64,000 nt of DNA. Origin: Hydractinia symbiolongicarpus. Lineage: Eukaryota; Cnidaria; Hydrozoa; Anthoathecata; Hydractiniidae. This document shows, piece after piece, positions 24,873 through 64,000 of this stretch. The position numbers and the translations under genes are program-made. The stretch is from the NCBI RefSeq assembly GCF_029227915.1, contig NC_079886.1, positions 8,556,001 through 8,620,000 of the forward strand, given 5' to 3'. Numbering within the stretch: position 1 is the stretch's first letter; every line of letters begins with the position of its first letter. The notes under the pieces were generated by a model that saw nothing but the letters and a program-made list of their open reading frames with translations, made no database searches and was not told the DNA's origin.

Positions 24873-25000
24873 TGGATAGATAATGTTTTAAATAATATGA
24901 TAGTAGGTCGTTGGTTATTTGTATTACTGTCTTCTGCTTTAAAGGGGAATTTCTAAAACCGCTCCAATGATTCAAAAGCCACACCAAACCTGATAACGAC

Positions 25001-31520: not shown

Positions 31521-31799
31521 TTAAATAGGACTACATTTATCCAAATCTTTGACACAGATATATTTACAGGTGCCATTCAAACAAATATTACTGCAAACAG
31601 GCTGGCATGTTGCTTGAGGTTTAACTTCTCCATAATCTAGTAATTCGTCATTTACGTCATTTTCTGTTAGGTCTTCATATAGTTCAGCTAATGCGTCTTC
31701 ATCCAATTCATTTTTATTCAAATTTATATGGCGTTCTTCAGAGAAGGTGATCAATATCAGCAAGCTTGCCAGTAGGAATGCTATCAAAGAAGTCTTCAT
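31521..31799 (-). CDS. Secreted six-cysteine peptide precursor (peptide 1)
   Basis: A 92-residue precursor. Residues 1 to about 20 (MKTSLIAFLLASLLILITFS) form a clear signal peptide. A strongly acidic segment follows (many Asp/Glu, about residues 21-60), then a short Cys-rich end with spacing C-x3-C-x3-C-x4-C-x3-C-x6-C, beginning CQPVCSNICLNGTC. The acidic part resembles an anionic propeptide. An acceptor (TTTAAACTTCTAG) lies two bases before the ATG, so the 5' leader is spliced and this start is favoured over the upstream in-frame codons. No named family is recognised. An antimicrobial, toxin-like or signalling peptide are all possible. It pairs with the similar gene at 34.9 kb. Confidence 0.75.
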   Translation of the reverse strand: MKTSLIAFLLASLLILITFSEERHINLNKNELDEDALAELYEDLTENDVNDELLDYGEVKPQATCQPVCSNICLNGTCKYICVKDLDKCSPI

Positions 31800-37169: not shown

Positions 37170-40100
37170 ATGCTAGATTGCCAAACTTTGCAAAGACAAA
37201 AGATCTTGCACCAAGTTTCCGGTAGAGAAGGCTGTTTTAATGATGTTGTCATCAGCCGTAATGATGAAGTCAATCATGTGGTCATTCTGTTTCCTGGTGA
37301 CGCTCAGGTACGGTATGTCTTGGTTTGTATTAATGTTATACCTTGTGGACCTACCCGGTACAGGTGAGGTCCTATAAAATGACCTGTGTCCGTCCGTTAC
37401 CTGCTTTTCTCAGAATTGTGTAATTAGTTTTTACTTACTTTTTTGTACAAATATAGAGAATAATAGACTCTCGAATGTGACGAAGTCGGTTTTTTGAGAA
37501 AAATCTTATCGCTTCAAAATGGCGGATTTATGCGCAAAATAAGCCAAAACGGTCCAATAAATACGATTTAACGACATTTCTCAGGATTGGATCATTAGTT
37601 TTTTCTGATTGCACTCAATGCACAAATATTGACAAGAACTGAACCTGATATATGACGAGGTCAGTTTTTTAAGAATTTGTTTTTCCGACCAAATAATGGC
37701 GTAGTCGTGGTCAAAATGAGTCGGAACAGTTCAAAAATTGGATTTTAAAACTTGGAACTGCGATATAAGTTGTTTTAATAAATTTACAAAATATTTGATA
37801 ATGAATACCAATGACACTATTTATTGTCCCTTTTTTTGAAAAATTGGATGGTGTTGTTCCAAACATGAGTTAATTAATAATTCTAAGTAAATCCATTGAA
37901 ATTTCGCTTGTTTTGTTTAGAAAACGGGGCTTTTTATTTTACTTGATTTTGACTAATACATCTCTGAAAAGTAACTAGTGTTCTATTCTTTAAGATAGAA
38001 AATCTTCTGTGAAGTTTTTGTAAACCAGTTTCTTATAAGAAATCGTGTAATGTACTTATTTGTATTTTTCTTTTTTTTTCACAGTTCAATATTTTTATAA
38101 GAAACACAATGTTTCTTAACCCAGGCTGTGATTATAGACATTTTTAACAGGTAACTTGCAAAAAAAATTGAGAAAATTGATAAACTCGCATATCTCATCT
38201 TAAAAGTATTTTAAATGTATATAAAACCGGGACGTGGCTCTACAGATTTTTAGAATATGCCCTTAAATGTTCATCCATGCTGATCTTAAAATTCATGTTT
38301 CTCATAAATAATGTGGTCTGTCTTAAACAAGAACTGTCTGAACAAGTGAGTCAAACGCGCATCTCAAATCCAACATGAAGTACTTCCAGCGACAATTACT
38401 GACATTTTAACAAAACAGGCATGCAAATAGCATACCACCTCGGCAAACTTTTTAACGACGTGAACAAACTTGAATTAAAAAGAACGTAACTATTTCTGGT
38501 TTTATATCTATGATCGAACTGCGAGTCGAAAGACAAATATGATGTGGTAGTGTTTGGATAATTTTGGGAAGTGAAAGTTAAACTATTTCATGCTTACTTT
38601 CACGCTTTTTATTCACATTGTCTTCTACTTATTTTTATTATAAACAACGATAAAACTTAAACAATCAAAATAAAAATTGTTTTAGTTATAGACGCTTCTT
38701 TCACAATTCTGCTGGGTAACTAAGGCTGCATAGCAAAATTTAAATAAAAAATGGTTTACTCGCGGTTGTAAACAGTCTAATGTAAACATCCCTCTTAATC
38801 AATCAATCAATCAATCAATCAATACAAAACAAGCTTGCATCAATCACATGAGAACAGCCTGCCTAACGTGACCGGGACAATGAAACGAATCTTGGCATAA
38901 CGTGGTTAAAAACAACATGAAACTTAATGCTCCTTAAGAAACATGCTTGTACGGGGCAAAATACAACAACTAAGACCGACATTGCACAACATGATCCATT
39001 GTAATATTAATTGGTCAGCTGACTACTTTTTCAAAAATTATATTGATTGTAAAATAAGAATTTTGGACGTCTATTTTCCAATTTTCTTTTTTTAGGATTT
39101 CACCCAAAATATGACTAATCACAGAGACAATTTCAGATGGAAAGAATATTCACTTGAAAACACGTCACAAATGATCAATCGAAAATATCCTCATGCATGC
39201 GTATGTCTTGTGAAGGCTAGCTATCTACACTTGAGAACATTCGCCTGTTACAGAAACTTCACAGAGTGTAACATGTTCGGCGTCCCTACATATACTTCGG
39301 TCAATTTGAATGCTTTTAGTCAACTGTTTGGTTTGTTTAAAGGCATATGTAGACAAGGTTGGTCTCTTTGCTAAAAAAATCACATATGGCAGAGTGGCCA
39401 ACAAATTAAACATTTTCAATATTTTTTGATTTCTATCTGCGTGATTGGTCGGTATAATTTTGGTTAATCAATGCTAAATTCATTGAGTACAAGTGACCTA
39501 GTTGTACAAACCTCGACTGTGCAGATATTTGAAGAATGTGTAAAAAACTCTGTAGAAATACATAATTTTTTTTCAAAAACTTGTGCCAAAATCTCTTGAT
39601 CCCCTAACGTTTATATTAAACGACTGGCCTATTTCTACGAGATTACGTTAGCATCTTGCTTCTTCAAACATAACCGCTGTTCTAATTCTCTTAAATAAGA
39701 ATCACTGTAAATTGGATCCTACGTATCGTGGTGAATTAGGAATTAACTTTTTCCCATTGTTTTCTTTCAGATCATATAAGTGTTATTGTAATGGCATATG
39801 TTTTAATTTTGACCGTGGTTTTTTTCTACGGTTGTCACTTTCTATTATGCTATAGAACTGTTCTACGTTCTCCACAGGATCTATCCCTTTCTTTTAGAAT
39901 CACTGAAAGAAGATTTACCTGTAACTTTGATCGGCTTCAGTAAGGGTTGCATTGTGTTGAACCAACTTCTGTACGAACTACCTGCTCTCTTGGAGTCTTC
40001 AGAGACTGCCATCAAATCATTCTTCAGCAACGTGCGTTCGTTTCTTTTGTTAGATTCGGGTGTTTCCGGTTCGTCTGGAGCGTGGGTAACAGATAAGAAA

Positions 40101-40364
40101 TACATCCAATCTGCTGCTCAGAACGTATCAGATATTCAAGTTCATCTCACTCCATACCAAATAAAAGACAAAATGAGGCCGTGGATAAATAAAGAGAAAA
40201 AACAGTTTGTCGAGGGATTAAAAGAGTATGGCGGTAATGTTTATGAGAATATGTATTTCGATGACCATTTGCCACAGTTGGCAGATCATTTTGCTTTACT
40301 GAGAAGCTTTGAACCTCTTCGTTGTACAAAAGAGTTTCTGCACAAGCATACGGAAATGCAGTAA
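37170..40364 (+). CDS. C2orf69: C2orf69-family mitochondrial protein
   Basis: Exons 37170-37307, 39096-39357 and 39856-40364 join in phase (0, then 1). This gives about 302 residues. Exon 1 ends HVVILFPGDAQ, the family's beta strand before its conserved loop. Exon 2 has NFRWKEYSLENTSQMINRKY and HLRTFACYRNF followed by NMFGVP. Exon 3 has LPVTLIGFSKGCIVLNQLLY, where GFSKG resembles a serine-hydrolase nucleophile elbow. It also has LTPYQIKDKMRPWI with KEKKQF, the family's C-terminal signature. Human C2orf69 is linked to mitochondrial function, and its enzymatic activity is not settled. The exon 3 acceptor could instead be at 39878, but only 39856 keeps phase with the donor at 39357. The N-terminus is shorter than in human, so an upstream exon may be missing. 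Confidence 0.9.
37405..37740. repeat. Imperfect tandem duplication, about 175 bp, in C2orf69 intron 1
   Basis: TTTCTCAGAATTGTGTAATT near 37,408 and TTTCTCAGGATTGGATCATT near 37,579 start two related segments. Each continues through CACAAATAT-like, GACGAAGTCGGTTTTTTGAG-like and AAAATGGCG-like words in the same order. Confidence 0.55.
38796..38823. repeat. (ATCA)n microsatellite
   Basis: Six to seven perfect AATC units. It lies in C2orf69 intron 1, which otherwise holds nothing recognisable from 37,741 to 39,095. Confidence 0.95.
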
Positions 40365-40961
40365 TATAGCATGTTTTGTATGTTCTATGTAGGATGCTGT
40401 GCATATAATTATATATATTCTATATTTCTTTCGCATTAGATTTTATTTAATTTTTTAAAATTATTTATATAAGCACGTTACTTTTAAAAAAACATTTAAA
40501 AAAATAAATTGTCCCTAAATTAAGAAGTTTTGCAAGTTTAAAATTTCTGGTGGTTCTTAAAAATCTTCATATCTAAGCGTTTGTCTTTTTTAAATTACAA
40601 ATTTGCTTCAAGACGAGGAAAAAAGTTCTCAATATTGCAGCAGCACGCTAAGTGTATTCAGCGAGTGTTACTAAGTTTCGCGTTAGACGCGTAAATCTCT
40701 TTAACGCACCGTTGTTTTTTTATTTTATTTTAAGCAGTGACCATTGTAGCTAATATAATTTTCTTCCTACAAGTTCTTCTACAAACCCATCTTTATGTGT
40801 GATGTAAGGTATGGCATGCAGGTGTAGCGGAACTGAATGGTAACGTGTAGAGTCAGTAGTTCCCAGTTTTTTGTTGACATTCACAGGCTTGGATTCAGTG
40901 GACACTTCATAGTTGGTATATTATAGGTACAACCAATCTAATCCGGAGATAAACAAAGTAT
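40365..40961. other. C2orf69 to POMK intergenic spacer
   Basis: About 600 bp holding the 3' end of C2orf69 and the promoter and 5' leader of POMK, both genes on the plus strand. No distinct motif recognised. Confidence 0.5.
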
Positions 40962-42420
40962 ATGTTTTCACCAGTGATCACATGGAGGATGATGATTCTA
41001 TGCGTGATAATGATAGTATTCATGCCACGAGCAGTTTTAACCGATGGGTGTACGAAGAATATGTACCTGCACAATGACGGAAGTTGTCATCCTTTTATTG
41101 ACTGTCAACATATGGACAGTGTTGTTATTCAACATGATTTGTCAACGATTGGTTTCGTAAAAAAATTGTTTCGTGCAACGGTGGATAATATGGCTGTGGT
41201 GTACAGCTATCCAATAAATAAAAGTGTGGAGAATGATTTTTTGCATGGAATTAGGATGTTAAGAGAATTTCAAGGTTCGTCACTTGTTGCAGAGATGATA
41301 GGATACTGCGATGAAAAAGAAAAATTACAAGTAATTTTTTTAATTTCTTAAACGCCCTGTTACACCTGTTCTAAATTAACGCCTGTCTTTTTACGCCTGC
41401 TGTTCTTGGCGTAAATTTTGTTGACGGAAAATGCTCATAGATAAGCATCTAACGCTAATCTGACGCTACGTTTTGATTTACGCCATGTTTCAAACATTTA
41501 CGCCATGTTTCGAATATATACGCCATGTTTTAAGTATTTACGCCATGTATCAATTATTTACGTTTTAATGTTTACGCCATGCTCCAGATATTAACGCTCT
41601 TTATTGCTTGTATAAAAAGGGTCGATATTAGGTGTATATACAACAGAGAACTTACAGACACAATACTTGGTTGCACTAAATGTCGCACTAAAACAAATAG
41701 AATGGTCTTTTGTCTATTCTTAAAATTTTAATGTTTCTTTACTTAGCGTTCCTTGATATTTGCAGATTTGGACGTTTAAATGCTTGTTTTTTCTGTTTTT
41801 AATGTATCAACCTGTAAGTTTGTATTTTTCAGCTTTTAACAAAGTATTATAAATATGGTTCCGCAGATCGTTTGAAGGACATACTGGAGAAGAAATCGTT
41901 ACGCGAACAGTTACAGATCAGACTGAATTTTTGTTATGATTACTTAGCAGCGCTTAAATTTTTGCATGATAGTCCACTTGGTGTAAGAGTAATGTGTGAC
42001 AGCAACGATGTTACGAAAACATTATCGCAATTTTTAATCACGGACGATTATCGATTGGTCATGGTTGATTTGGATGCGTTACCGGAAGTGGATCTCGAAA
42101 ATAATGTTACCGTAAAATGTGGACATAGACAATTATTTGGTGATTTTGTAGCACCAGAACAGCTGTGGCCACACGATCATCTTGTATTCGACGATAGGAA
42201 GATGCCTGGCTACGATGAAAAAACGGATGTGTGGAAGATTCCGAACGTACTATCGTATATTTTAGGGACTACTTCTATGGCGAAACAAGTTAGATTTCGT
42301 ATGTTTGACATATTTCGACAATGTAAAGAGTTGGAAAGCTGGAAAAGACCTACGGCAGGTTCTGTTTTAAGAACACTTGTTGATGTTGTAAAAACATTGA
42401 ATTTAAAGATAGAATTATAA
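40962..42420 (+). CDS. POMK: Protein O-mannose kinase
   Basis: Two exons, 40962-41330 and 41833-42420, joined in phase 0, encode 318 residues (human about 350). An N-terminal hydrophobic segment (MMILCVIMIVFM, residues 10-21) fits a type II signal anchor. A lumenal kinase-like domain with Cys-bearing start (GSCHPFIDC) follows. Diagnostic stretches are DFLHGIRMLREFQGS, FLHDSPLGVRVMCDSND (replacing the usual HRD loop), MVDLDALPEV (DFG equivalent) and VKCGHRQLFGDFVAPEQLWP with YDEKTDVWKIP. In animals POMK phosphorylates the 6-position of O-mannose in the core M3 trisaccharide on alpha-dystroglycan in the ER/Golgi. All family-specific motifs visible are intact, so activity is likely. Confidence 0.95.
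41477..41597. repeat. 20-bp tandem repeat in the POMK intron
   Basis: TTTACGCCATGTTTCAAACA-type units start at 41477, 41497, 41517, 41537 and 41557, and after a shortened unit at 41571. Related ACGCC words extend upstream to about 41,350. Confidence 0.9.
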
Positions 42421-44833: not shown

Positions 44834-44905
44834 TGCCGTGACCAGGATTCGAACCTGGGTTATTGCGGCCACAACGCAATGTACTAACCACTATACGATC
44901 ACGGC
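44834..44905 (-). tRNA. tRNA-His (GTG)
   Basis: On the minus strand the cloverleaf is complete. The acceptor stem GCCGTGA pairs with TCACGGC, and the discriminator is A. The D-arm/A box is TAGTGGTTAGTAC, and the anticodon stem GCG/CGC carries loop TTGTGGC with anticodon GTG. The T-arm is CCAGGTTCGAATCCTGG (B box). A TTTT run follows within 12 bases as a Pol III stop. There is no intron and no encoded CCA, as expected for a nuclear eukaryotic gene. Confidence 0.97.
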
Positions 44906-45993: not shown

Positions 45994-46056
45994 ATGAAAA
46001 ATGGCGAAATGTTGGAAATCCATGTTGTTGTTTGCTTTCCTTGTGATTTGTGTTGA
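45994..46056 (+). promoter_or_regulatory. Upstream ORF overlapping the progranulin start
   Basis: An ATG seven bases before the chosen start opens a 20-codon frame that stops inside exon 1. The downstream ATG is preferred because it alone encodes a signal peptide and joins exon 2 in phase. Leaky scanning past the first ATG would be needed. Confidence 0.4.
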
Positions 46057-49000
46057 AGCATCAAAGCATCAAACTGCAAAAAAGGTATTAATTATATACC
46101 AATAAAAAATTTGTTCAGCCCTTAAAATTTATTTATTGTGGTGGCAAGAAATGTATCTATTTAGTAATTTATACATTTTTAAAATAAGTATATACGTGCA
46201 ACATATATGAGGGTTCGAATTATCATAATATAAAAATGCTTCGCATATGTTTTATTTTTACTAGTTCAGTGTCTCCCAAGCGCAAAGTAAACCAAAGTAA
46301 AATTTTCAATTTTAGGAGTTTAGATTGTCAGAAAATGCATTTCCAGCATATTTAAACACTGTAATGGTATAACATATTTGTATGATTTCATTTTTCTACT
46401 CACCAGTGATGGATTTAAAGAACAGATTTCTTGTAAAAGCAATAAACACACACTAGTTGTTCAGCAATCACAATGTCTGGATATTTTTTTTTGTTTGTTC
46501 TCATCGTGCATTCTCACTTTTTTACAGTGGAGTAGTTACAAATAACTTCTTTCTCAGCTTCTCTGTTTCATTGAAAAAATAATAATAAGAGAAGTGGCAA
46601 TAAGTTGTGACGTACTAAATGTCGGGGAAAGTGAACCAAAAGTCATCGAATAATTTCCTTTTTATTTTAGAAAATTTCCAACTTATAAAAATATTTTTTT
46701 ATTAACTAATAAGTAAAAAAGTGTTAATTCACCATTCTCATGCATCGACTTTGCTGAAAGATAGTCGACGAGCGTTCAACAAGATGTTATTCCACAAATA
46801 ATACGGCTAAAAATCAATGACGTTTTTTACACCGACCTAAAAGTTTTCGATACTAATTCATGGCTTGATGTATCTTAACATTAAGAAAATGCTAGAAATT
46901 GCATCGCATTTTTGTCCCACTTTTCAAAATCACTTTGCATTATAGATAGATGTGCTTATTTTACATGGCTAGCCTGAGAAATATCAAGGAATATACCCTG
47001 TCTATTATTTGCAGGAGGGGCTTAGATGGATAGTCCTAGAGTATTTAATGCTCATTTTGAGCTACGCAGACCCAATTAGGGCCTACACTCTACTAGACAA
47101 CTCTTCGCAACATCCAACGGCCCACACAGTGTGCCATCTTCCCAATTTCCCTCACATGGTGTGCGTTAACCCGGGGCTATGGTAACATTCACTCGCCCAT
47201 GTTGAATCCCCGTCAAGAGAAATCGAACCCTGGTCTCCCGCACAGAGTAGGAGAGTTATAACCACAATCTACGACGCCACAATAAACACTAATCTACAGT
47301 GCCACCATAGATTAGTGCAAGTGACAGTGACTGTGGGTACTTTATCATCTACAAATGTTTCCCAAGTCTTAAAATGGTATGCTATATCTATCAATTAAAT
47401 TATGTCAAAACATGATGTTGCAGACAAGAGCGGTTCTTGTGTTTGGGGTTCACGAGTTGAAACGTCCCCCACTTGTCTCCAGCATGAAAAAACAGAACAC
47501 ACACACATGTTTATAAAATGATTAGAGTAAGTAAAAAGACGCAGGATTTTTTTTAACATGATGCGGGTTATGCAAAGGTGTGGGTAAGTATAACAAATTG
47601 ATTAAAATTTTATGCAGTTTATATGAAGGTGCGGGCTATCTGATAGCATCTAGTTTATAACTCCCTAAAAAAGCTTAGCTGAGGGTTATGCGATGTGCGG
47701 GTTATATACCGGAAAATATGGTACATCAATACTTTTCATCATCGCCAGGCTTATTTTTTTTAAATTTGAATCTCATTTCACATCATCTCATCATTCAATC
47801 CTCAAGTTAGTAAAGTAGGTGGTCACATTTTGACTGCATAAATCAGTTGTTTTGTTTGCCATTGAAATTGCTGATATTTTAGGTTGTCTTCAAAGGTAAA
47901 ATGTTTTGTAAATTTAACAAACACTAATTGCATTTTAGGAGCAGAAATCCCAGAGTCAAAATGGAAGATTCTCATTCTTATCAAAATTAAAATCACTCCA
48001 TCTCAGTGGTTTGGGCAATGTTATATGTCCTGATGGAGTAACTTCTTGTAATGATGGATATACTTGTTGTTTGCTTTCTGATGGCAGATATGGTTGTTGT
48101 CCTTACCCAAATGCAAACTGCTGCAATGATCACATACATTGTTGTCCATATAATTATTATTGTCAAGTTCCATACTGCAATCCAAGGCGGAAGTTTGAGA
48201 AAAAGACATTGACACTTACTAAAACAGTTTCAAAAAAACCTAGTAACTATTTACTTCACCTGTATGGTGCTTATAATGCAGTGATATGCCCTGATAAGAG
48301 ATACACATGTCCTGGAGGCCATACATGTTGCAAAAAGGAAAATGGGGAATATGCCTGCTGTCCCTTTGTAAATGCTGGTTGCTGCAGTGATGGTGTTCAT
48401 TGCTGTCCGAAGGGATTTTATTGTGACTACAAAGAAAGAAAGTGCAATAAAGAATTAGTACGCATGCCTCTGGGTATTAAAACAAGGGCTAAGCCTATTC
48501 CTAAGTTGCTGCAAGCATTCTTAGGGTTAAAAAAGAAAGAAATCAGCAAACCAAACACTGTAAATTGCTCTGGTGGCATATATTATTGTAAGACTGGAGA
48601 GACATGTTGTTTAACATCAAAAGGCGTGTATGCTTGCTGTCCATTGCCCAATGCTGTTTGCTGCTCAGATCATCAACATTGCTGCCAACATGGAACTAAA
48701 TGTGATGTAAAACAATTGAAATGCGTGCCAAAAAATGGAGGACTAGATCAAGAAATTTTAAAAAAACATCCTGCACAAATGCATAAGCATATTAGCTCTA
48801 AATTTCCTGTTCAATGTCCTGATCACACTCATTATTGCCCAGCTGGATCAACATGTTGTTTGACCTCCGCTGCTAGTTATGGTTGTTGTCCAGTTCCAAA
48901 AGCTGTTTGTTGTGAAGATGAAAAGCATTGTTGTCCAGAAAATTCAAAGTGCTTTTCTGGAAAATGTGCATTTTCTAATGGCAATGTTGTTACTGCTCTT

Positions 49001-52000
49001 GTAAAAATGCCAGCAAAACCAATGACCATATGCCCTGATGGACACACTTCATGTCCTGACAGTTGGACTTGTTGTAAATCTGAACAAGGGTATGGGTGTT
49101 GCCCTCTTCCAGATGCTGTTTGCTGTGATGATCTTAAGCATTGTTGTGAGAATGGTTATGAATGTACAGCAGGTAGAGTTTTTGATTTTTTTTTATTAAA
49201 TCATGTCTATGCATGCTTCAAATCAAATTACTTGGCATTATCATTGAAAAAAAATTCTGCAAACCTTTGTTTATCTTTATGCTTTTGTGTATTACACTAA
49301 AATTGTTCTGGTTGTTGTTTTTTTAATTCAAAAAATATATATACTGAAACAAATTTTTCAAATGCAAACCAACCACATTATTAAGCAAAATTATGGATAA
49401 CCATGATTTTAAAGGACCTGATACACTTGTATAATATTACTGAAATATACCTTATAATATCAATATAATTTCTTAAAATATGGTTATAATTTCTTATAGT
49501 TATAATATGTACAATTTTTAAACACCTGGAATGTGCATCAAAACCTCATATAATTTGCTGCATGGTTATAATATTTGAATAAAATAAATATGATTTTAAT
49601 AATATTGTTGGTAATCTGGTTTCGAATGCCTTTTGTTTGTGTGACAATAGATCTATTATCTGCTAGCGTTGTTGTGGCAACGATGTCATGAAATTAAATG
49701 AAATTATAACGATATTACAACAAATTATAAGTATAATGTAGATAAATTATAAATATATTTTAGAATATATTTAATGATATTATACAAGTGTATCCTGGCC
49801 TTACAAAGAATGTGGTAGGTGTCTATACTTCTCTGTGAGAAGGTTGTTTAAACTAAATGGAATAATCATAATTCAGTAAGCCAGATCTATATTATAATGA
49901 TTTTCTACTCGGTTTTCTTAGGGGTATGTCACCTTGGCACGACACAGAAGTCTATGGTAAAGCATGTTTCAGGATATGTTATCAGAAGCACAGATACTGA
50001 TCAAATTAAACTCTGCTCTGATGGGAAAACGAAATGTGATGAATCCAAAACATGCTGTGATAAAATATTGAATGAAAGCTACTGTTGCCCCTTCCCTAAT
50101 GCAGTCTGCTGTCTTAATAACAGTCATTGTTGCCCACAAGGCTTCACTTGCTCTCAACATGGTAGGAGATTATTTTATACTAGTTGATAAGGTGATTTTA
50201 CCAATGACCCGTCAATAAAGAATTGAGTTTAAAAGTTTAACATCATTGACTTGCCTGTTTGGAAACAGGTGGGTTGACCCAGGCTTAGTTAATTGGTCCC
50301 AGGTGATGCCTGGTAACCCAAGCAATGAAAGTTAAGTGATGTCACCACCCTGTTTCCAAGTTGTTTGGCCTCAAAGTTATAAGTACTATGCAATGACTTA
50401 ACTAATCTTATTAAAAACATAGACACTATTCTAATGTGTTAAGTCATAATTTAACATCAGAAAAGTTAACAAATAAGACGTTACTAATTTGCTAAATTGA
50501 TGGAGAATGAAGTTGTCTACTTTGGTTGTTACAGACTTTGTCTTGTGTTTGACATTATCGCCTGTTTTAACCAAACTATCACTTTCTAAATGGGCTAAAT
50601 TTCATTTTGCATGTTGCTCTATGTGTAAGGTGATACAACTCTAACATATCCAAACCCTAATTTGTAAGTTTTTTAGAACTGGAAAGGCAAATAAAGTACA
50701 GTTTACAGCCTTTTGATTCATTAAATAACAAGAACATATTCTCTTTAAATCCATTCTTGCAGGGCTGGAATTAGTCATTTTGCAAACATTGACTAATGTG
50801 GAGAACAAAAACCTCTTTGCTGCTCTGGTTTGGAAGCATAGGCCACTTGCCATTAATCCCTTGTAAATAGTTTTTTGTTGTGACAACCATTATAGAAGCA
50901 GGTGATACAAATTTTATTGTAGAATAATTCACAATGACAGGATTTATTTTGCAAATTCCAATTTGTCAACTGCTAATTCAAACCCTTTCGTTTCCCTTCT
51001 GAAGCTTATCTTTTCCCCTTTTATTATTACTGATTTGACAGTCAGCCTAAAGTATCAGGAATTGAAGATTGACATGATATTTTCTGTTTGTAGTGTTGCA
51101 AGCACACCACATCAATTGTTGTCCCAATACAAACTTTTTCCAAAAAAAGGCATGCACATCTGCAGCACCCATGTACAAAATGATCTAGGCATCCTATTAA
51201 TGGCACGTGCAAAATGCTAATGTTCTCAAAACTTGACCATAACTAATACATCTCTGTAATAAAATATTTCCATTACAGCCTGAAGCCTTTGCCAGTAATT
51301 TCTAATGTATTTTTCATATGTATAACCATTAACAAATATTAGAAAATGAAGAATAACTAATACTATGTCATTTCCTTTTGCAGGAATTTGCAACAAAAAC
51401 GGTGTGTCAAAATCACCATTTAGAAACATTTTCTCACAAATTTGTCCTGATGGTGTAACAGAATGTCCATCAAACAACACTTGTTGTAAATTATCTACTG
51501 GGGGATATGGATGTTGTCCTTTGCCTCAAGCTACTTGCTGTTCTGACGGTGTACACTGCTGTCCGAATGGTTATTCCTGTTCGGCAGGTACTTTTCATTT
51601 TAATTTTTCGTGCTTTAGCGTCTTCATTGCATATTTCCATTGGTAAAGGAATCCGCCGGGAACGATTAATGCATTGTGGAAACCTCTGCTCCATGGCAAA
51701 TTCTTTCTCCGTCATTCTTAATTGGAAAAGTGACTTATAAAGGGTTTTGAGCTTTTCTAAAATATTCCTTTCGTTTGGCCCTTTATATTGTTTACTACAT
51801 TTATCACACCAGCATGTCTCAAGTAGTAAATCTCCCTGCTATCTTTGTTCACATGTGAAATGGCTGGTTAAAGTTTATGTGTTCCATGTTAGGTTATTGT
51901 GTGAAAGGAGACGAAAGAATCGAAGCATCAAGACATACCAGTGGCATAAAAAAAGCCTTGGTAGTATGTCCAGACGGAGTGTCACAATGCCCTTCAGGAA

Positions 52001-55000
52001 GCACGTGCTGTAAACTGTCTACAGGAGGCTATGGATGTTGTCCCCTGCCCAAGGCTACCTGCTGTTCTGATGGTGTTCACTGCTGCCCAAACGGTTATTC
52101 TTGTTCAGCAGGTACGTTTTATGAGAATTTTACGCCTCTTAATATTTCTTTTGCATTGCATGGTTGGTAAAAAGAGCATGGAAAAGACTTGCAGCCTTTT
52201 GTGAGTCTTCTGTGTTCCTAGAAAACGGTGCGGTCCACTCGTAATGGCAACTTAGTTGAATTCATGCTTCTTCCTGTCCCTATGTACATTGATCTGATAA
52301 GATGTTTTCCGCTAGGTTATCGTATGTAATCTTGTCCTTTTACATTTCGAATTTATAATAGCACTTTAGGGTTTGTGTTTTATGTTAGGTTCCTGTGTGA
52401 AAGGAAAGGAACAAATTGAAGCGTCTAAACATACTAGCTCTATAAAGAAAGCCTTGGTAGTATGTCCGGACGGCACGGAATGTGCGACTGGGAGCACGTG
52501 CTGTAAATTATCTACTGGGGGATATGGATGTTGTCCTTTGACTCAAGCTACCTGCTGTTCTGACGGTGTACACTGCTGTCCGAATGGTTATTCCTGTTCG
52601 GCAGGTACTTTTCATTTTAATTTTCCGTGCTTTAGCGTCTTCATTGCATAATTACATTGGTAAATGAATCAGCCGGGAACGATTGATGCATTGTGGAAAC
52701 CTCTGCTTCAATTGGAAAAGTGACTTATAAAGGGTTTTGAGCTTTCTTATGATATTCCTTTCGCTTGGCCCTTTATATTGTTTTCTACATTTATCACACC
52801 AGCATGTCTCAAGTAGTAAATATCCCTGCTATCTTTCTTCACATGTGAAATGGCTGCTTAAAGTCTACGTGTTCCATGTTAGGTTATTGTGTGAAAGGAG
52901 ACGAAAGAATCGAAGCATCAAGACATACCAGTGGCATAAAGAAAGCCTTGGTAGTATGTCCAGACGGAGTGTCACAATGCCCTTCAGGAAGCACGTGCTG
53001 TAAACTGTCTACAGGAGGCTATGGATGTTGTCCCCTGCCCAAGGCTACCTGCTGTTCTGATGGTGTTCACTGCTGCCCAAACGGTTATTCTTGTTCAGCA
53101 GGTACGTTTTATGAGAATTTTGCGCCTCTTAATATTTCTTTTGCATTCCATGGTTAGTAAAAAGAGCATGGAAAAGACTTGTGTGTTCCTAGAAAACAGT
53201 GCGGTCCACTCGTAATGGCAACTTAGTCGAATTCTTGCTTCTTCCTGTCCCTTTGTACATTTATCTGATAAGACGTTTTCCGCTAGGTTATCATATGTAA
53301 TCTTGTCCTTTTACATTTTGAATTTAAAATAGCACTTTAGGGTTTGTGTTTTATGTTAGGTTCCTGTGTGAAAGGAAAGGAACAAATTGAAGCGTCTAAA
53401 CATACTAGCTCTATAAAGAAAGCCTTGGTAGTATGTCCGGACGGCACGGAATGTGCGACTGGGAGCACGTGTTGTAAATTATCTACTGGGGGATATGGAT
53501 GTTGTCCTTTGCCTCAAGCTACTTGCTGTTCTGACGGTGTACACTGCTGTCCGAATGGTTATTCCTGTTCGGCAGGTACTTTTCATTTTAATTTTCCGTG
53601 CTTTAGCGTCTTCATTGCATAATTACATTGGTAAACGAATCCGCCGGGAACGATTGATGCATTGTGGAAACCTCTGCTCCAATTGGAAAAGTGACTTATA
53701 AAGGGTTTTGAGCTTTCTTATGATATTCCTTTCGTTTGGCCCTTTATATTGTTTTCTACATTTATCACACCAGCATCTCTCAAGTAGTAAATATCCCTGC
53801 TATCTTTGTTCACATGTGAAATGGCTGCTTAAAGTCTACGTGTTCAATGTTAGGTTATTGTGTGAAAGGAGACGAAAGAATCGAAGCATCAAGACATACC
53901 AGCTCTATAAAGAAAGCCTTGGTAGTATGTCCAGACGGAGTGTCACAATGCCCTTCAGGAAGCACGTGCTGTAAACTGTCTACAGGAGGCTATGGATGTT
54001 GTCCCCTGCCCAAGGCTACCTGCTGTTCTGATGGTGTTCACTGCTGCCCAAACGGTTATTCTTGTTCAGCAGGTACGTTTTATGAGAATTTTGCGCCTCT
54101 TAATATTTCTTTTGCATTCCATGGTTAGTAAAAAGAGCATGGAAAAGACTTGTGTGTTCCTAGAAAACAGTGCGGTCCACTCGTAATGGCAACTTAGTCG
54201 AATTCTTGCTTATTCCTGTCCCTTTGTACATTTATCTGATAAGACGTTTTCCGCTAGGTTATCGTATGTAATCTTGTCCTTTTACATTTCGAATTTATAA
54301 TAGCACTTTAGGGTTTGTGTTTTATGTTAGGTTCCTGTGTGAAAGGAAAGGAACAAATTGAAGCGTCTAAACATACTAGCTCTATAAAGAAAGCCTTGGT
54401 GGTATGTCCGGACGGCACGGAATGTGCGACTGGGAGCACATGCTGTAAATTATCTACTGGGGGATATGGATGTTGTCCTTTGACTCAAGCTACCTGCTGT
54501 TCTGACGGTGTACACTGCTGTCCGAATGGTTATTCCTGTTCGGCAGGTACTTTTCATTTTAATTTTCCGTGCTTTAGCGTCTTCATTGCATAATTACATT
54601 GGTAAACGAATCAGCCGGGAACGATTGATGCATTGTGGAAACCTCTGCTTCAATTGGAAAAGTGACTTATAAAGGGTTTTGAGCTTTCTTATGATATTCC
54701 TTTCGCTTGGCCCTTTATATTGTTTTCTACATTTATCACACCAGCATGTCTCAAGTAGTAAATATCCCTGCTATCTTTGTTCACATGTGAAATGGCTGCT
54801 TAAAGTCTACGTGTTCCATGTTAGGTTATTGTGTGAAAGGAGACGAAAGAATCGAAGCATCAAGACATACCAGTGGCATAAAGAAAGCCTTGGTAGTATG
54901 TCCAGACGGAGTGTCACAATGCCCTTCAGGAAGCACGTGCTGTAAACTGTCTACAGGAGGCTATGGATGTTGTCCCCTGCCCAAGGCTACCTGCTGTTCT

Positions 55001-58000
55001 GATGGTGTTCACTGCTGCCCAAACGGTTATTCTTGTTCAGCAGGTACGTTTTATGAGAATTTTGCGCCTCTTAATATTTCTTTTACATTCCATGGTTAGT
55101 AAAAAGAGCATGGAAAAGACTTGTGTGTTCCTAGAAAACGGTGCGGTCCACTCGTAATGGCAACTTAGTCGAATTCTTGCTTCTTCCTGTCCCTTTGTAC
55201 ATTTATCTGATAAGACGTTTTCCGCTAGGTTATCATATGTAATCTTGTCCTTTTACATTTTGAATTTAAAATAGCACTTTAGGGTTTGTGTTTTATGTTA
55301 GGTTCCTGTGTGAAAGGAAAGGAACAAATTGAAGCGTCTAAACATACTAGCTCTATAAAGAAAGCCTTGGTAGTATGTCCGGACGGCACGGAATGTGCGA
55401 CTGGGAGCACGTGTTGTAAATTATCTACTGGGGGATATGGATGTTGTCCTTTGCCTCAAGCTACTTGCTGTTCTGACGGTGTACACTGCTGTCCGAATGG
55501 TTATTCCTGTTCGGCAGGTACTTTTCATTTTAATTTTCCGTGCTTTAGCGTCTTCATTGCATAATTACATTGGTAAACGAATCCGCCGGGAACGATTGAT
55601 GCATTGTGGAAACCTCTGCTCCAATTGGAAAAGTGACTTATAAAGGGTTTTGAGCTTTCTTATGATATTCCTTTCGTTTGGCCCTTTATATTGTTTTCTA
55701 CATTTATCACACCAGCATCTCTCAAGTAGTAAATATCCCTGCTATCTTTGTTCACATGTGAAATGGCTGCTTAAAGTCTACGTGTTCAATGTTAGGTTAT
55801 TGTGTGAAAGGAGACGAAAGAATCGAAGCATCAAGACATACCAGCTCTATAAAGAAAGCCTTGGTAGTATGTCCAGACGGAGTGTCACAATGCCCTTCAG
55901 GAAGCACGTGCTGTAAACTGTCTACAGGAGGCTATGGATGTTGTCCCCTGCCCAAGGCTACCTGCTGTTCTGATGGTGTTCACTGCTGCCCAAACGGTTA
56001 TTCTTGTTCAGCAGGTACGTTTTATGAGAATTTTGCGCCTCTTAATATTTCTTTTGCATTCCATGGTTAGTAAAAAGAGCATGGAAAAGACTTGTGTGTT
56101 CCTAGAAAACAGTGCGGTCCACTCGTAATGGCAACTTAGTCGAATTCTTGCTTCTTCCTGTCCCTTTGTACATTTATCTGATAAGACGTTTTCCGCTAGG
56201 TTATCATATGTAATCTTGTCCTTTTACATTTTGAATTTAAAATAGCACTTTAGGGTTTGTGTTTTATGTTAGGTTCCTGTGTGAAAGGAAAGGAACAAAT
56301 TGAAGCGTCTAAACATACTAGCTCTATAAAGAAAGCCTTGGTAGTATGTCCGGACGGCACGGAATGTGCGACTGGGAGCACGTGTTGTAAATTATCTACT
56401 GGGGGATATGGATGTTGTCCTTTGCCTCAAGCTACTTGCTGTTCTGACGGTGTACACTGCTGTCCGAATGGTTATTCCTGTTCGGCAGGTACTTTTCATT
56501 TTAATTTTCCGTGCTTTAGCGTCTTCATTGCATAATTACATTGGTAAACGAATCCGCCGGGAACGATTGATGCATTGTGGAAACCTCTGCTCCAATTGGA
56601 AAAGTGACTTATAAAGGGTTTTGAGCTTTATTATGATATTCCTTTCGTTTGGCCCTTTATATTGTTTTCTACATTTATCACACCAGCATCTCTCAAGTAG
56701 TAAATATCCCTGCTATCTTTGTTCACATGTGAAATGGCTGCTTAAAGTCTACGTGTTCAATGTTAGGTTATTGTGTGAAAGGAGACGAAAGAATCGAAGC
56801 ATCAAGACATACCAGCTCTATAAAGAAAGCCTTGGTAGTATGTCCAGACGGAGTGTCACAATGCCCTTCAGGAAGCACGTGCTGTAAACTGTCTACAGGA
56901 GGCTATGGATGTTGTCCCCTGCCCAAGGCTACCTGCTGTTCTGATGGTGTTCACTGCTGCCCAAACGGTTATTCTTGTTCAGCAGGTACGTTTTATCAGA
57001 ATTTTACGCCTCTTAATATTTCTTTTGCATTGCATGGTTGGTAAAAAGAGCATGGAAAAGACTTGCGGCCTTTTGTGAGTCTTCTGTGTTCCTAGAAAAT
57101 GGTGCGGTCCACTCGTAATGGCAACTTAGTCGAATTCTTGCTTATTCCTGTCCCTTTGTACATTTATCTGATAAGACGTTTTCCGCTAGGTTATCGTATG
57201 TAATCTTGTCCTTTTACATTTCGAATTTATAATAGCACTTTAGGGTTTGTGTTTTATGTTAGGTTCCTGTGTGAAAGGAAAGGAACAAATTGAAGCGTCT
57301 AAACATACTAGCTCTATAAAGAAAGCCTTGGTAGTATGTCCGGACGGCACGGAATGTGCGACTGGGAGCACGTGTTGTAAATTATCTACTGGGGGATATG
57401 GATGTTGTCCTTTGCCTCAAGCTACTTGCTGTTCTGACGGTGTACACTGCTGTCCGAATGGTTATTCCTGTTCGGCAGGTACTTTTCATTTTAATTTTCC
57501 GTGCTTTAGCATCTTCATTGCATAATTACATTGGTAAACGAATCCGCCGGGAACGATTGATGCATTGTGGAAACCTCTGCTCCAATTGGAAAAGTGACTT
57601 ATAAAGGGTTTTGAGCTTTATTATGATATTCCTTTCGTTTGGCCCTTTATATTGTTTTCTACATTTATCACACCAGCATCTCTCAAGTAGTAAATATCCC
57701 TGCTATCTTTGTTCACATGTGAAATGGCTGCTTAAAGTCTACGTGTTCAATGTTAGGTTATTGTGTGAAAGGAGACGAAAGAATCGAAGCATCAAGACAT
57801 ACCAGCTCTATAAAGAAAGCCTTGGTAGTATGTCCAGACGGAGTGTCACAATGCCCTTCAGGAAGCACGTGCTGTAAACTGTCTACAGGAGGCTATGGAT
57901 GTTGTCCCCTGCCCAAGGCTACCTGCTGTTCTGATGGTGTTCACTGCTGCCCAAACGGTTATTCTTGTTCAGCAGGTACGTTTTATGAGATTTTTATGCC

Positions 58001-61000
58001 TCTTAATATTTCCTTTGCATTGCATGGTTGGTAAAAAGAGCATAGAAAAGCATTGCAGCCTTTTGTGAGTCTTCTGTGTTCCTAGAAAACGGTGCGGTCG
58101 ACTCGTAATGGCAACTTAGTCGAATTCTTGCTTATTCCTGTCCCTTTGTACATTTATCTGATAAGACGTTTTCCGCTAGGTTATCGTATGTAATCTTGTC
58201 CTTTTACATTTCGAATTTATAATAGCACTTTAGGGTTTGTGTTTTATGTTAGGTTCCTGTGTGAAAGGAAAGGAACAAATTGAAGCGTCTAAACATACTA
58301 GCTCTATAAAGAAAGCCTTGGTGGTATGTCCGGACGGCACGGAATGTGCGACTGGGAGCACGTGCTGTAAATTATCTACTGGGGGATATGGATGTTGTCC
58401 TTTGACTCAAGCTACCTGCTGTTCTGACGGTGTACACTGCTGTCCGAATGGTTATTCCTGTTCGGCAGGTACTTTTCATTTTAATTTTCCGTGCTTTAGC
58501 GTCTTCATTGCATAATTACATTGGTAAACGAATCAGCCGGGAACGATTGATGCATTGTGGAAACCTCTGCTTCAATTGGAAAAGTGACTTATAAAGGGTT
58601 TTGAGCTTTCTTATGATATTCCTTTCGCTTGGCCCTTTATATTGTTTTCTACATTTATCACACCAGCATGTCTCAAGTAGTAAATATCCCTGCTATCTTT
58701 GTTCACATGTGAAATGGCTGCTTAAAGTCTACGTGTTCCATGTTAGGTTATTGTGTGAAAGGAGACGAAAGAATCGAAGCATCAAGACATACCAGTGGCA
58801 TAAAGAAAGCCTTGGTAGTATGTCCAGACGGAGTGTCACAATGCCCTTCAGGAAGCACGTGCTGTAAACTGTCTACAGGAGGCTATGGATGTTGTCCCCT
58901 GCCCAAGGCTACCTGCTGTTCTGATGGTGTTCACTGCTGCCCAAACGGTTATTCTTGTTCAGCAGGTACGTTTTATGAGAATTTTGCACCTCTTAATATT
59001 TCTTTTACATTCCATGGTTAGTAAAAAGAGCATGGAAAAGACTTGTGTGTTCCTAGAAAACGGTGCGGTCCACTCGTAATGGCAACTTAGTCGAATTCTT
59101 GCTTCTTCCTGTCCCTTTGTACATTTATCTGATAAGACGTTTTCCGCTAGGTTATCATATGTAATCTTGTCCTTTTACATTTTGAATTTAAAATAGCACT
59201 TTAGGGTTTGTGTTTTATGTTAGGTTCCTGTGTGAAAGGAAAGGAACAAATTGAAGCGTCTAAACATACTAGCTCTATAAAGAAAGCCTTGGTAGTATGT
59301 CCGGACGGCACGGAATGTGCGACTGGGAGCACGTGTTGTAAATTATCTACTGGGGGATATGGATGTTGTCCTTTGCCTCAAGCTACTTGCTGTTCTGACG
59401 GTGTACACTGCTGTCCGAATGGTTATTCCTGTTCGGCAGGTACTTTTCATTTTAATTTTCCGTGCTTTAGCGTCTTCATTGCATAATTACATTGGTAAAC
59501 GAATCCGCCGGGAACGATTGATGCATTGTGGAAACCTCTGCTCCAATTGGAAAAGTGACTTATAAAGGGTTTTGAGCTTTCTTATGATATTCCTTTCGTT
59601 TGGCCCTTTATATTGTTTTCTACATTTATCACACCAGCATCTCTCAAGTAGTAAATATCCCTGCTATCTTTGTTCACATGTGAAATGGCTGCTTAAAGTC
59701 TACGTGTTCAATGTTAGGTTATTGTGTGAAAGGAGACGAAAGAATCGAAGCATCAAGACATACCAGCTCTATAAAGAAAGCCTTGGTAGTATGTCCAGAC
59801 GGAGTGTCACAATGCCCTTCAGGAAGCACGTGCTGTAAACTGTCTACAGGAGGCTATGGATGTTGTCCCCTGCCCAAGGCTACCTGCTGTTCTGATGGTG
59901 TTCACTGCTGCCCAAACGGTTATTCTTGTTCAGCAGGTACGTTTTATGAGAATTTTGCGCCTCTTAATATTTCTTTTGCATTCCATGGTTAGTAAAAAGA
60001 GCATGGAAAAGACTTTTTTGTTCCTAGAAAACAGTGCGGTCCACTCGTAATGGCAACTTAGTCGAATTCTTGCTTCTTCCTGTCCCTTTGTACATTTATC
60101 TGATAAGACGTTTTCCGCTAGGTTATCATATGTAATCTTGTCCTTTTACATTTTGAATTTAAAATAGCACTTTAGGGTTTGTGTTTTATGTTAGGTTCCT
60201 GTGTGAAAGGAAAGGAACAAATTGAAGCGTCTAAACATACTAGCTCTATAAAGAAAGCCTTGGTAGTATGTCCGGACGGCACGGAATGTGCGACTGGGAG
60301 CACGTGTTGTAAATTATCTACTGGGGGATATGGATGTTGTCCTTTGCCTCAAGCTACTTGCTGTTCTGACGGTGTACACTGCTGTCCGAATGGTTATTCC
60401 TGTTCGGCAGGTACTTTTCATTTTAATTTTCCGTGCTTTAGCGTCTTCATTGCATAATTACATTGGTAAACGAATCCGCCGGGAACGATTGATGCATTGT
60501 GGAAACCTCTGCTCCAATTGGAAAAGTGACTTATAAAGGGTTTTGAGCTTTATTATGATATTCCTTTCGTTTGGCCCTTTATATTGTTTTCTACATTTAT
60601 CACACCAGCATCTCTCAAGTAGTAAATATCCCTGCTATCTTTGTTCACATGTGAAATGGCTGCTTAAAGTCTACGTGTTCAATGTTAGGTTATTGTGTGA
60701 AAGGAGACGAAAGAATCGAAGCATCAAGACATACCAGCTCTATAAAGAAAGCCTTGGTAGTATGTCCAGACGGAGTGTCACAATGCCCTTCAGGAAGCAC
60801 GTGCTGTAAACTGTCTACTGGAGGCTATGGATGTTGTCCCCTGCCCAAGGCTACCTGCTGTTCTGATGGTGTTCACTGCTGCCCAAACGGTTATTCCTGT
60901 TCAGCAGGTACGTTTTATCAGAATTTTACGCCTCTTAATATTTCTTTTGCATTGCATGGTTGGTAAAAAGAGCATGGAAAAGACTTGCGGCCTTTTGTGA

Positions 61001-64000
61001 GTCTTCTGTGTTCCTAGAAAATGGTGCGGTCCACTCGTAATGGCAACTTAGTCGAATTCTTGCTTATTCCTGTCCCTTTGTACATTTATCTGATAAGACG
61101 TTTTCCGCTAGGTTATCGTATGTAATCTTGTCCTTTTACATTTCGAATTTATAATAGCACTTTAGGGTTTGTGTTTTATGTTAGGTTCCTGTGTGAAAGG
61201 AAAGGAACAAATTGAAGCGTCTAAACATACTAGCTCTATAAAGAAAGCCTTGGTAGTATGTCCGGACGGCACGGAATGTGCGACTGGGAGCACGTGTTGT
61301 AAATTATCTACTGGGGGATATGGATGTTGTCCTTTGCCTCAAGCTACTTGCTGTTCTGACGGTGTACACTGCTGTCCGAATGGTTATTCCTGTTCGGCAG
61401 GTACTTTTCATTTTAATTTTCCGTGCTTTAGCATCTTCATTGCATAATTACATTGGTAAACGAATCCGCCGGGAACGATTGATGCATTGTGGAAACCTCT
61501 GCTCCAATTGGAAAAGTGACTTATAAAGGGTTTTGAGCTTTATTATGATATTCCTTTCGTTTGGCCCTTTATATTGTTTTCTACATTTATCACACCAGCA
61601 TCTCTCAAGTAGTAAATATCCCTGCTATCTTTGTTCACATGTGAAATGGCTGCTTAAAGTCTACGTGTTCAATGTTAGGTTATTGTGTGAAAGGAGACGA
61701 AAGAATCGAAGCATCAAGACATACCAGCTCTATAAAGAAAGCCTTGGTAGTATGTCCAGACGGAGTGTCACAATGCCCTTCAGGAAGCACGTGCTGTAAA
61801 CTGTCTACAGGAGGCTATGGATGTTGTCCCCTGCCCAAGGCTACCTGCTGTTCTGATGGTGTTCACTGCTGCCCAAACGGTTATTCTTGTTCAGCTGGTA
61901 CGTTTTATGAGAATTTTACGCCTCTTAATATTTCTTTTGCATTGCATGGTTGGTAAAAAGAGCATGGAAAAGACTTGCGGCCTTTTGTGAGTCTTCTGTG
62001 TTCCTAGAAAACGGTGCGGTCGACTCGTAATGGCAACTTAGTCGAATTCTTGCTTATTCCTGTCCCTTTGTACATTTATCTGATAAGACGTTTTCCGCTA
62101 GGTTATCGTATGTAATCTTGTCCTTTTACATTTCGAATTTATAATAGCACTTTAGGGTTTGTGTTTTATGTTAGGTTCCTGTGTGAAAGGAAAGGAACAA
62201 ATTGAAGCGTCTAAACATACTAGCTCTATAAAGAAAGCCTTGGTGGTATGTCCGGACGGCACGGAATGTGCGACTGGGAGCACGTGTTGTAAATTATCTA
62301 CTGGGGGATATGGATGTTGTCCTTTGCCTCAAGCTACTTGCTGTTCTGACGGTGTACACTGCTGTCCGAATGGTTATTCCTGTTCGGCAGGTACTTTTCA
62401 TTTTAATTTTCCGTGCTTTAGCGTCTTCATTGCATAATTACATTGGTAAACGAATCCGCCGGGAACGATTGATGCATTGTGGAAACCTCTGCTCCGATTG
62501 GAAAAGTGACTTATAAAGGGTTTTGAGCTTTCTTATGATATTCCTTTCGTTTGGCCCTTTATATTGTTTTCTACATTTATCATACCAGCATCTCTCAAGT
62601 AGTAAATATCCCTGCTATCTTTGTTCACATGTGAAATGGCTGGTTAAAGTCTACGTGTTCCATGTTAGGTTATTGTGTGAAAGGAGACGAAAAAATCGAA
62701 GCATCAAGACATACCAGTGGCATAAAGAAAGCCTTGGTAGTATGTCCAGACGGAGTGTCACAATGCCCTTCAGAAAGCACGTGCTGTAAACTCTCTACAG
62801 GAGGCTATGGATGTTGTCCCCTGCCCAAGGCTACCTGCTGTTCTGATGGCGTTCACTGCTGCCCAAACGGTTATTCTTGTTCAGCAGGTACGTTTTATGA
62901 GAATTTTACGCCTCTTAATATTTTTTTTCCATTGCATGGTTAGTAAAAAGAGCATGTAAAAGACTTGCGGCCTTTTGTGAGTCTTCTGTGTTCCTAGAAA
63001 ACGGTGCGGTCCACTCGTAATGGCAACTTAGTCGGATTCTTGCTTATTCCTGTCCCTTTGTACATTTATCTGATAAGACGTTTTCCGCTAGGTTATCGTA
63101 TGTAATCTTGTCCTTTTACATTTCGAATTTATAATAGCACTTTAGGGTTTGTGTTTTATGTTAGGTTCCTGTGTGAAAGGAAAGGAACAAATTGAAGCGT
63201 CTAAACATACTAGCTCTATAAAGAAAGCCTTGGTAGTATGTCCGGACGGCACGGAATGTGCGACTGGGAGCACGTGTTGTAAATTATCTACTGGGGGATA
63301 TGGATGTTGTCCTTTGCCTCAAGCTACTTGCTGTTCTGACGGTGTACACTGCTGTCCGAATGGTTATTCCTGTTCGGCAGGTACTTTTCATTTTAATTTT
63401 CCGTGCTTTAGCGTCTTCATTGCATAATTACATTGGTAAACGAATCCGCCGGGAACGATTGATGCATTGTGGAAACCTCTGCTCCAATTGGAAAAGTGAC
63501 TTATAAAGGGTTTTGAGCTTTCTTATGATATTCCTTTCGTTTGGCCCTTTATATTGTTTTCTACATTTATCACACCAGCATCTCTCAAGTAGTAAATATC
63601 CCTGCTATCTTTGTTCACATGTGAAATGGCTGCTTAAAGTCTACGTGTTCCATGTTAGGTTATTGTGTGAAAGGAGACGAAAGAATCGAAGCATCAAGAC
63701 ATACCAGCTCTATAAAGAAAGCCTTGGTAGTATGTCCAGACGGAGTGTCACAATGCCCTTCAGGAAGCACGTGCTGTAAACTGTCTACAGGAGGCTATGG
63801 ATGTTGTCCCCTGCCCAAGGCTACCTGCTGTTCTGATGGTGTTCACTGCTGCCCAAACGGTTATTCTTGTTCAGCAGGTACGTTTTATGAGATTTTTATG
63901 CCTCTTAATATTTCCTTTGCATTGCATGGTTGGTAAAAAGAGCATAGAAAAGCATTGCAGCCTTTTGTGAGTCTTCTGTGTTCCTAGAAAACGGTGCGGT
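46001..64000 (+). CDS. GRN: Progranulin with a giant tandem array of granulin exons, partial at 3' end
   Basis: Exon 1 (45966-46084, ATG 46001) encodes signal peptide [20 protein letters not shown]. Exon 2 (47939-49172) carries five granulin domains. Exon 3 (49922-50161) and exon 4 (51384-51587) carry one each. Then type A exons (219 bp) start at 51893, 52883, 53854, 54825, 55796, 56767, 57757, 58747, 59718, 60689, 61679, 62669 and 63659. They alternate with type B exons (216 bp) at 52389, 53360, 54331, 55302, 56273, 57263, 58253, 59224, 60195, 61185, 62175 and 63165. All splice sites are AG/GT and phases agree, giving 2,400 codons so far. Each domain has the 12-Cys granulin pattern (CPDG, TCC, GCC, TCC, HCC). 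Progranulins are secreted growth and lysosomal factors cut into single granulins. The linker carries IKK before each domain as a possible processing site. The 3' end is outside the window. Confidence 0.95.
47015..47300 (-). mobile_element. tRNA-derived SINE in progranulin intron 1
   Basis: On the minus strand the head reads like a Pol III promoter. A GTGGTTATAACTC A-box-like word is followed about 30 bases later by GGTTCGATTTC (B box). A non-tRNA body then continues through CCCGGGTTAACGCACACC and TTGCGAAGAGTTGTCTAGTA. No other coding or structural explanation fits this GC-richer block in an AT-rich intron. Confidence 0.65.
47287..47317. repeat. 10-bp inverted repeat
   Basis: CACTAATCTA, an 11-base spacer, then TAGATTAGTG, exact complements. 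It adjoins the SINE head. Confidence 0.85.
51384..64000 (+). repeat. Tandem exon-intron array (A/B granulin pairs, 971 or 990 bp)
   Basis: Successive A exons are 990, 971, 971, 971, 971, 990, 990, 971, 971, 990, 990 and 990 bp apart. The 19-bp difference is one indel in the A-to-B intron: long forms contain CGGCCTTTTGTGAGTCTTC and short forms lack it. Introns after A (277 or 258 bp) and after B (about 278 bp) are as conserved as exons. Exon 4 has a B-type second half and is followed by a B-type intron, so it is the left boundary unit with a diverged first half. The array runs off the right edge. Confidence 0.97.
54250..61700 (+). repeat. Higher-order repeat of four A/B pairs (3,922 bp) within the array
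   Basis: Private variants recur in the same order 3,922 bp apart. LTQAT occurs in the B exons at 54331 and 58253. ISFTFHG after the A exons occurs at 54825 and 58747. FYQNF after the A exons occurs at 56767 and 60689. CFSIF after the B exons occurs at 57263 and 61185. This shows a block of eight exons was duplicated after the basic A/B pairs had spread. Confidence 0.85.

Follow-up and report, generated by a model that had tools for sequence, protein, structure and literature searches.

A 42-exon progranulin gene of Hydractinia symbiolongicarpus with an array of alternating granulin exons, probably grown by unequal crossing-over

Hydractinia symbiolongicarpus, a small colonial relative of jellyfish, carries a progranulin gene of 42 exons, which on the evidence of its exon and intron sequences has very probably grown by unequal crossing-over of a two-exon unit. 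The analyzed window is a stretch of 64,000 nucleotides (C12:8556001-8620000), and the contig was read on to position 8639000, 19 kb past the window; positions called window-extended continue the numbering of the window. The gene lies on the + strand from position 46001, and its 29 exons inside the window form a single open frame, which is translated into 2400 aa with 0 stops. According to the 12-cysteine pattern, 32 granulin domains are encoded in the window, namely 31 complete domains and one without its twelfth cysteine at the window edge. The parts of the gene are the following.

46001-46084, + strand: exon 1, with start codon and phase 0 donor, in a splice-consistent frame and identical to NCBI protein P0121
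47939-49172, + strand: exon 2, five older, diverged granulin modules in one exon
49922-50161, + strand: exon 3, sixth older granulin, 240 bp, phase 1/1, in frame
51384-51587, + strand: exon 4, seventh module, a chimeric exon at the array boundary with its acceptor at 51384
51893-63877, + strand: exons 5-29, array of 13 B exons (219 bp) alternating with 12 A exons (216 bp)
63878-64000, + strand: intron at the window edge, with 8 further array exons beyond
window-extended 64155-71880 (C12:8620155-8627880), + strand: part of the gene past the window, with the rest of the array, granulin exons, tail and stop

Exon 1 codes for a hydrophobic N-terminus, which by eye resembles a signal peptide. Exon 2 ends in phase 1 between Cys 11 and Cys 12 of its fifth module, and a Pfam scan of this exon revealed Granulin in five stretches (E 1.3e-62). 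On the 3' side of the array lie two granulin exons, which are separated by an exon with the degenerate domain; two short tail exons follow, and the stop codon is located at window-extended 71880. The whole product comprises 3251 aa with 514 cysteines (about 334 kDa) and contains 42 twelve-cysteine granulins and one degenerate domain; its frame runs from start to stop through all 42 exons without an internal stop. Exons 3-41 have lengths which are all multiples of three and are all of phase 1/1, and the introns from after exon 2 to before exon 41 each separate the two final cysteines of a module. Several short genes in a cluster were rejected as an explanation, since 41 of 41 introns show GT-AG borders and are in phase, and one start and one stop codon bracket the exons.

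The degenerate granulin (window-extended 68765-69040, C12:8624765-8625040) is located between the last two full modules. It has eight cysteines and an unusually long linker. The protein ends in GGYVTF (C12:8627840-8627880), a short aromatic-hydrophobic tail which resembles those of two Hydra progranulins (KKDFVLF and KKDYVMF). Tails of this type are possibly conserved sorting or receptor tails.

The search for granulin domains in the genome supports the assignment to progranulin, which had been made in an earlier note on this DNA. Using the Pfam Granulin profile (PF00396), 45 candidates were scored, of which 42 pass, all in one locus (C12:8604062-8626311). In this one profile search, scoring the best candidates only, it is the only progranulin locus detected in the H. 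symbiolongicarpus genome. The modules match the solved granulin chains 2jyt (E 1.4e-17), 2jyv (8.9e-16) and 2jye (6.3e-14), and the matches to solved structures comprise 5 distinct sequences in all. The assignment thus stands on 42 modules with the 12-cysteine pattern, the same number of profile matches and the similarity to solved granulins; a chance or low-complexity artefact was rejected in view of the 42 Pfam matches in one continuous frame.

The gene is already present in databases under a wrong name. Its NCBI entry is P0121, "fibrillin-2-like isoform X2", with 3171 aa; it corresponds to our gene model minus the 80 aa of exon 3 and is otherwise identical. Exon 3 is probably a cassette exon, because it is absent from this isoform. 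Fibrillins are characterized by calcium-binding EGF and TB domains. Since PF00396 is the only precomputed Pfam domain listed for P0121, identity as a fibrillin was rejected; two scanned pieces of the gene likewise gave Granulin alone. In the open-licence literature, no paper was found for Hydractinia symbiolongicarpus together with granulin, and the sole match for Hydractinia with progranulin was a review on planarian single-cell work in which each term occurs once. For granulin in cnidarian cell types, 19 of the 20 matches listed from this literature were without granulin, and in further open-licence searches one paper (PMC4527844) was the sole directly relevant one among the matches listed.

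Several other features were observed in the window. The - strand carries a tRNA gene at 44834-44905, which precedes the start codon of progranulin by about 1.1 kb. Part of a C2orf69-family gene was identified at 39813-40364 on the + strand (Pfam E 3.8e-34). Two neighbouring frames at 40953-42420 on the + strand by eye resemble pieces of a kinase-like protein; the Pfam scan of these frames gave no match. On the - strand, short frames at 31521-31892 and 34932-35261 combine a hydrophobic stretch with a cysteine-rich end and by eye look like small secreted proteins; they, too, were without a match in the Pfam scan. At 23873-24145 on the + strand an ISXO2-like transposase domain is matched weakly (E 5.2e-4, below the cut-off), and a 58-bp tandem repeat is located near it at 24605-24873.

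The array exons of the window alternate strictly between B and A, as the earlier note had described, and its counts of seven older domains, 25 array exons and at least 32 domains are exact. Each array exon encodes Cys 12 of the preceding granulin, the linker, and Cys 1-11 of the following granulin. In the window, the array introns have lengths of 258-278 bp, and the array exons are of phase 1/1 throughout. The array had been described as continuing at the window edge. This is true for 8 more exons, but the array is finite: its end, at window-extended 67819, is about 4 kb outside the window. In full it consists of 33 exons (17 B and 16 A), i.e., 16 B-A dimers and a final B, and covers 16,436 bp. 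Only 5 distinct peptides are encoded by the 25 array exons of the window and 6 by all 33. The array was unreported by Tandem Repeats Finder, the period of the dimers being longer than the 500-base limit of this tool. The following copies and blocks were used in the comparison of the units.

51893-52388, + strand: first B copy, consisting of exon 51893-52111 and its intron
52389-52882, + strand: first A copy, consisting of exon 52389-52604 and its intron
54825-57756, + strand: dimers U4-U6, paired with U8-U10 at an offset of 3922
58747-61678, + strand: dimers U8-U10, partner block of U4-U6

The growth unit comprises a B exon, the B intron, an A exon and the A intron (971-990 bp) and was very probably multiplied by unequal crossing-over. 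The dimers have lengths of 971, 972 or 990 bp, owing to two different small deletions in intron B. The 16 complete dimers differ on average at 18.6 bases (1.9%). This difference tends to rise with the separation of the dimers, though unevenly, with 18.2 at lag 1, 14.4 at lag 4 and 27.0 at lag 15. Dimers U4-U6 show only 1, 2 and 2 mismatches to their partners in U8-U10, and other close pairs are U2/U4 (2 mismatches) and U12/U14 (3 mismatches). Whereas the dimers are 1.9% apart in DNA, the A-B protein identity to the two best-scoring other proteins is 63-64%. The array thus bears the marks of unequal exchange, namely block duplications and dimers which are closer within the gene than to other proteins. 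The tandem exon amplification claimed in the earlier note agrees well with these blocks and near-identical dimers. Its view of a very recent, possibly ongoing expansion or concerted evolution is supported in part, namely for recent turnover, as indicated by the low mean difference and the pairs with 1-3 mismatches.

Given the phase 1/1 exons and the position of the introns between the last two cysteines, the gain or loss of a complete unit leaves the reading frame intact. Identity between A and B exons is about 80-83%, whereas the first B and the first A intron share only a 20-base local match (one intron pair, compared without a shuffle control). Since the exons are related and the introns are not, exchange would stay in register, and such in-register exchange alone could keep the strict alternation without selection for it. 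The units would be homogenised by block duplication and probably also by short gene conversion. A 4-bp patch carries A-type bases in 9 of the 17 B exons, which probably points to gene conversion. The borders of the array are also of mixed origin or more diverged. Exon 4 is composed of an older 5' part and an A-type 3' part: in comparison to four A copies there are 5-8 differences in the last 125 bases compared and 11 in the first 56, and the downstream intron is A-type (16-18 differences in 278 bases to four A copies). Both the A-type patch and this chimeric exon would fit continuing homogenisation of the copies, as in concerted evolution. In the last B exon the second half is more diverged, with 9 differences in 109 bases versus 2-6 in 110 in the first half (three B copies compared).

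Arrays of near-identical units might also arise when haplotypes or few real units are strung together by the assembler. The heterozygosity of the sequenced strain of the species was estimated to be high, at 1.33% (PMC11067881), which is of the same order as the 1.9% between the units. The published chromosome-level assembly (483 Mb in 84 sequences) is based on HiFi reads with 66x coverage and an N50 of 13.2 kb (PMC10411563). The genome analyzed here (G000, 480.9 Mb in 76 contigs) is taken, by inference, as a later version of that work, so that these read data apply to it by inference as well. Inside the 16,436-bp array the longest exact repeat is 1593 bp (all offsets of at least 100 bases). 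This is well below the read length, and read overlaps should therefore resolve the array. As the array (16.4 kb) exceeds the HiFi N50 in length, its copy number rests on such overlaps and is well supported, not proven. In addition, the array is flanked by non-array sequence on both sides and the joined 83 kb contain 0 N. The NCBI protein P0121 agrees with the model as well, though it was derived from the same contig and is hence not independent. An assembly duplication of the array is unlikely, and units merely strung together by the assembler appear highly improbable in view of these data.

The copies also show signs of selection. Among the variable codons of 16 A and 16 B exons, 4 of 16 are amino-acid changing versus 77% expected (binomial 1.5e-5). 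This test is approximate because the copies share ancestry, whereas the sites are treated as independent, and B codons 17-18 form a single patch; the codon count excludes the last B exon, which would add 3 amino-acid-changing and 8 silent differences. The pN/pS ratio is 0.07 for A, 0.19 for all 17 B exons and 0.23 for B without the last one. Synonymous divergence amounts to 0.027 in A and 0.057 in B (0.039 without the last exon) and is at or above the divergence of the adjacent introns (A 0.016, B 0.035). That so few differences among the copies affect the amino acid indicates translation of the peptides and constraint on them.

In the mechanism that we propose, the copy number of the array would act as dosage. 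Alternatively, the array may be mostly a neutral by-product of unequal exchange, in which granulin copies pile up and become uniform, purifying selection acts only against misfolded modules, and the number of copies is without meaning for dosage. It is a possible explanation, which we hold tentatively: the strict alternation could be explained by in-register exchange alone, and the module number varies widely among animals (PMC4527844 and predicted proteins), the examined Hydra entry having 11 modules and the Clytia entry 10, the latter being incomplete and ending inside a module. On the other hand, very large chains occur in nemertean, echinoderm, chordate and mollusc entries, i.e., in four other phyla, and are taken as independent, which suggests that long forms are repeatedly tolerated or favoured.

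All 33 array linkers contain a KK pair shortly before the next module, and a dibasic pair is present in 37 of the 41 linkers of the whole Hydractinia chain. The KK pairs are compatible with proteolytic release of single granulins, although they are not proof of it. A polyneuropeptide precursor contains many copies of one peptide with dibasic cleavage sites between them. The Hydractinia gene is similar in its many copies and in one KK per array linker; it differs in that each of its units is a folded domain of about 50 aa. The peptide-amplifying design suggested in the earlier note would be plausible. Progranulin is processed to 6 kDa granulins in some instances (PMC4527844), and for this reason the release of about 33 near-equal granulins is the most natural reading. 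The precursor would be secreted or sent to lysosomes and then cut in the linkers, so that one transcript would give rise to about 33 nearly identical granulins of two types. For the cutting step itself we regard the chances as even.

The full-length chain could instead remain uncut and form a cysteine-rich extracellular polymer, as in matrix, mucus or an adhesive, rather than a precursor of small peptides. Such a function would fit the extreme repetition and the high number of cysteines (514 in 3251 aa), and the linkers of other giant progranulins are mostly non-dibasic (a dibasic pair in 4 of 38 linkers in Patiria, 2 of 34 in Nucella and 2 of 27 in Diadema). The conservation of KK in every array linker and the known processing to small granulins argue against it, and we consider a polymer rather unlikely. 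Among eleven other proteins with at least 28 modules, linkers with a dibasic pair range from 2 of 34 to 31 of 32. KK sites were therefore rejected as a general mark of giant progranulins, on the basis of the Patiria and Nucella linkers.

Near-identical or identical tandem modules are a recurrent feature of progranulins, described for Aplysia, oyster, sea urchin, Nematostella, amphioxus, Xenopus and zebrafish, and the number of modules ranges from one to more than 30 (PMC4527844, 2015). For comparison we used 226 proteins (the best 120 of 989 matches and at least 106 from a second search), including the Hydractinia protein. A third search with a higher length limit gave at least 57 matches, with candidate proteins of up to about 5,550 aa. 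The module counts for other animals are derived from predicted proteins, some of which are flagged as partial or low quality. By the same count, the matches listed include Lineus (nemertean) with 40 modules, Patiria (starfish) with 39, an amphioxus hybrid with 38, Haliotis with 34-37, Nucella with 35 and an electric fish with 29. In Patiria, 29 of 39 modules are at least 90% alike, and in Nucella 33 of 35 are alike. The Hydractinia gene is the largest among the first 226 proteins compared. As the largest known array it was rejected, because the predicted amphioxus protein P0227, among the matches listed in the third search, has 58 modules in 4635 aa. The earlier note had set the gene against the vertebrate protein with 7.5 domains; this contrast is misleading, as 29-58 modules are predicted in a fish, molluscs, echinoderms, a nemertean and amphioxus.

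Periodicity was determined for 26 of the 226 proteins, hand-picked mostly for size and including the Hydractinia protein. A two-module periodicity, shared with Hydractinia, was found in Diadema antillarum P0139 (likeness of 0.67 between neighbours versus 0.89 between next-but-one modules) and Haliotis asinina P0156 (0.61 versus 0.80), and P0125 shows a period of three modules. A-B alternation is thus not unique to Hydractinia. Diadema and Haliotis differ from Hydractinia in their linkers and belong to other lineages, and the amplification of dimers was therefore probably independent. One could go further and assume that strict A-B pairing is selected as an obligate equimolar A/B pair, that the dimers of sea urchin and abalone are convergent and that array length tunes the dose; we regard this as a very doubtful extension.

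Other known progranulins resemble the Hydractinia gene in part. In amphioxus (Branchiostoma), likewise, one very long chain carries many near-identical granulins, with up to 31 repeated modules and more than 30 in all, and an exon type without the first and last cysteine of the module is marked (PMC4527844, Table 2). It differs in that the repeats lie within a large exon and not as one module per exon (PMC4527844). Aplysia californica likewise has multiple exons, and 11 of its 13 modules are identical, but it has fewer modules and split N, C and CN exons in contrast to the symmetrical one-per-module exon of Hydractinia (PMC4527844). Of the 225 other proteins compared, P0130 (EukProt gene3771) matches A-B with the highest score. 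Its linker is the most similar among those compared, sharing VKGD...KH...KK, and seven identical module copies near its C-terminus are like the repetition in Hydractinia; it differs in having 26 modules with last copies of a single type. Mammalian GRN shares tandem 12-cysteine modules with short joining sequences, but it has 7.5 modules, each from two exons split in the middle of the module (PMC4527844). Judged from these proteins, the size, the repetition and the dimer structure of the Hydractinia gene all have precedents.

The picture of progranulin evolution is unchanged by this gene, since such arrays arise repeatedly (PMC4527844). It is an extreme example of an already known kind of enlargement, which is also found in lancelets, starfish, ribbon worms and snails. 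Our analysis corrects a database name, as the "fibrillin-2-like" gene is the only progranulin locus detected in H. symbiolongicarpus. With its exon-by-exon array, in which freer introns lie beside constrained exons, the locus is a good site for measuring unequal crossing-over and gene conversion, and the array is suited to a test of whether granulin copy number sets dose. H. symbiolongicarpus is one of the main models for the study of stem cells and regeneration in animals, and such a growth factor would be worth testing there.
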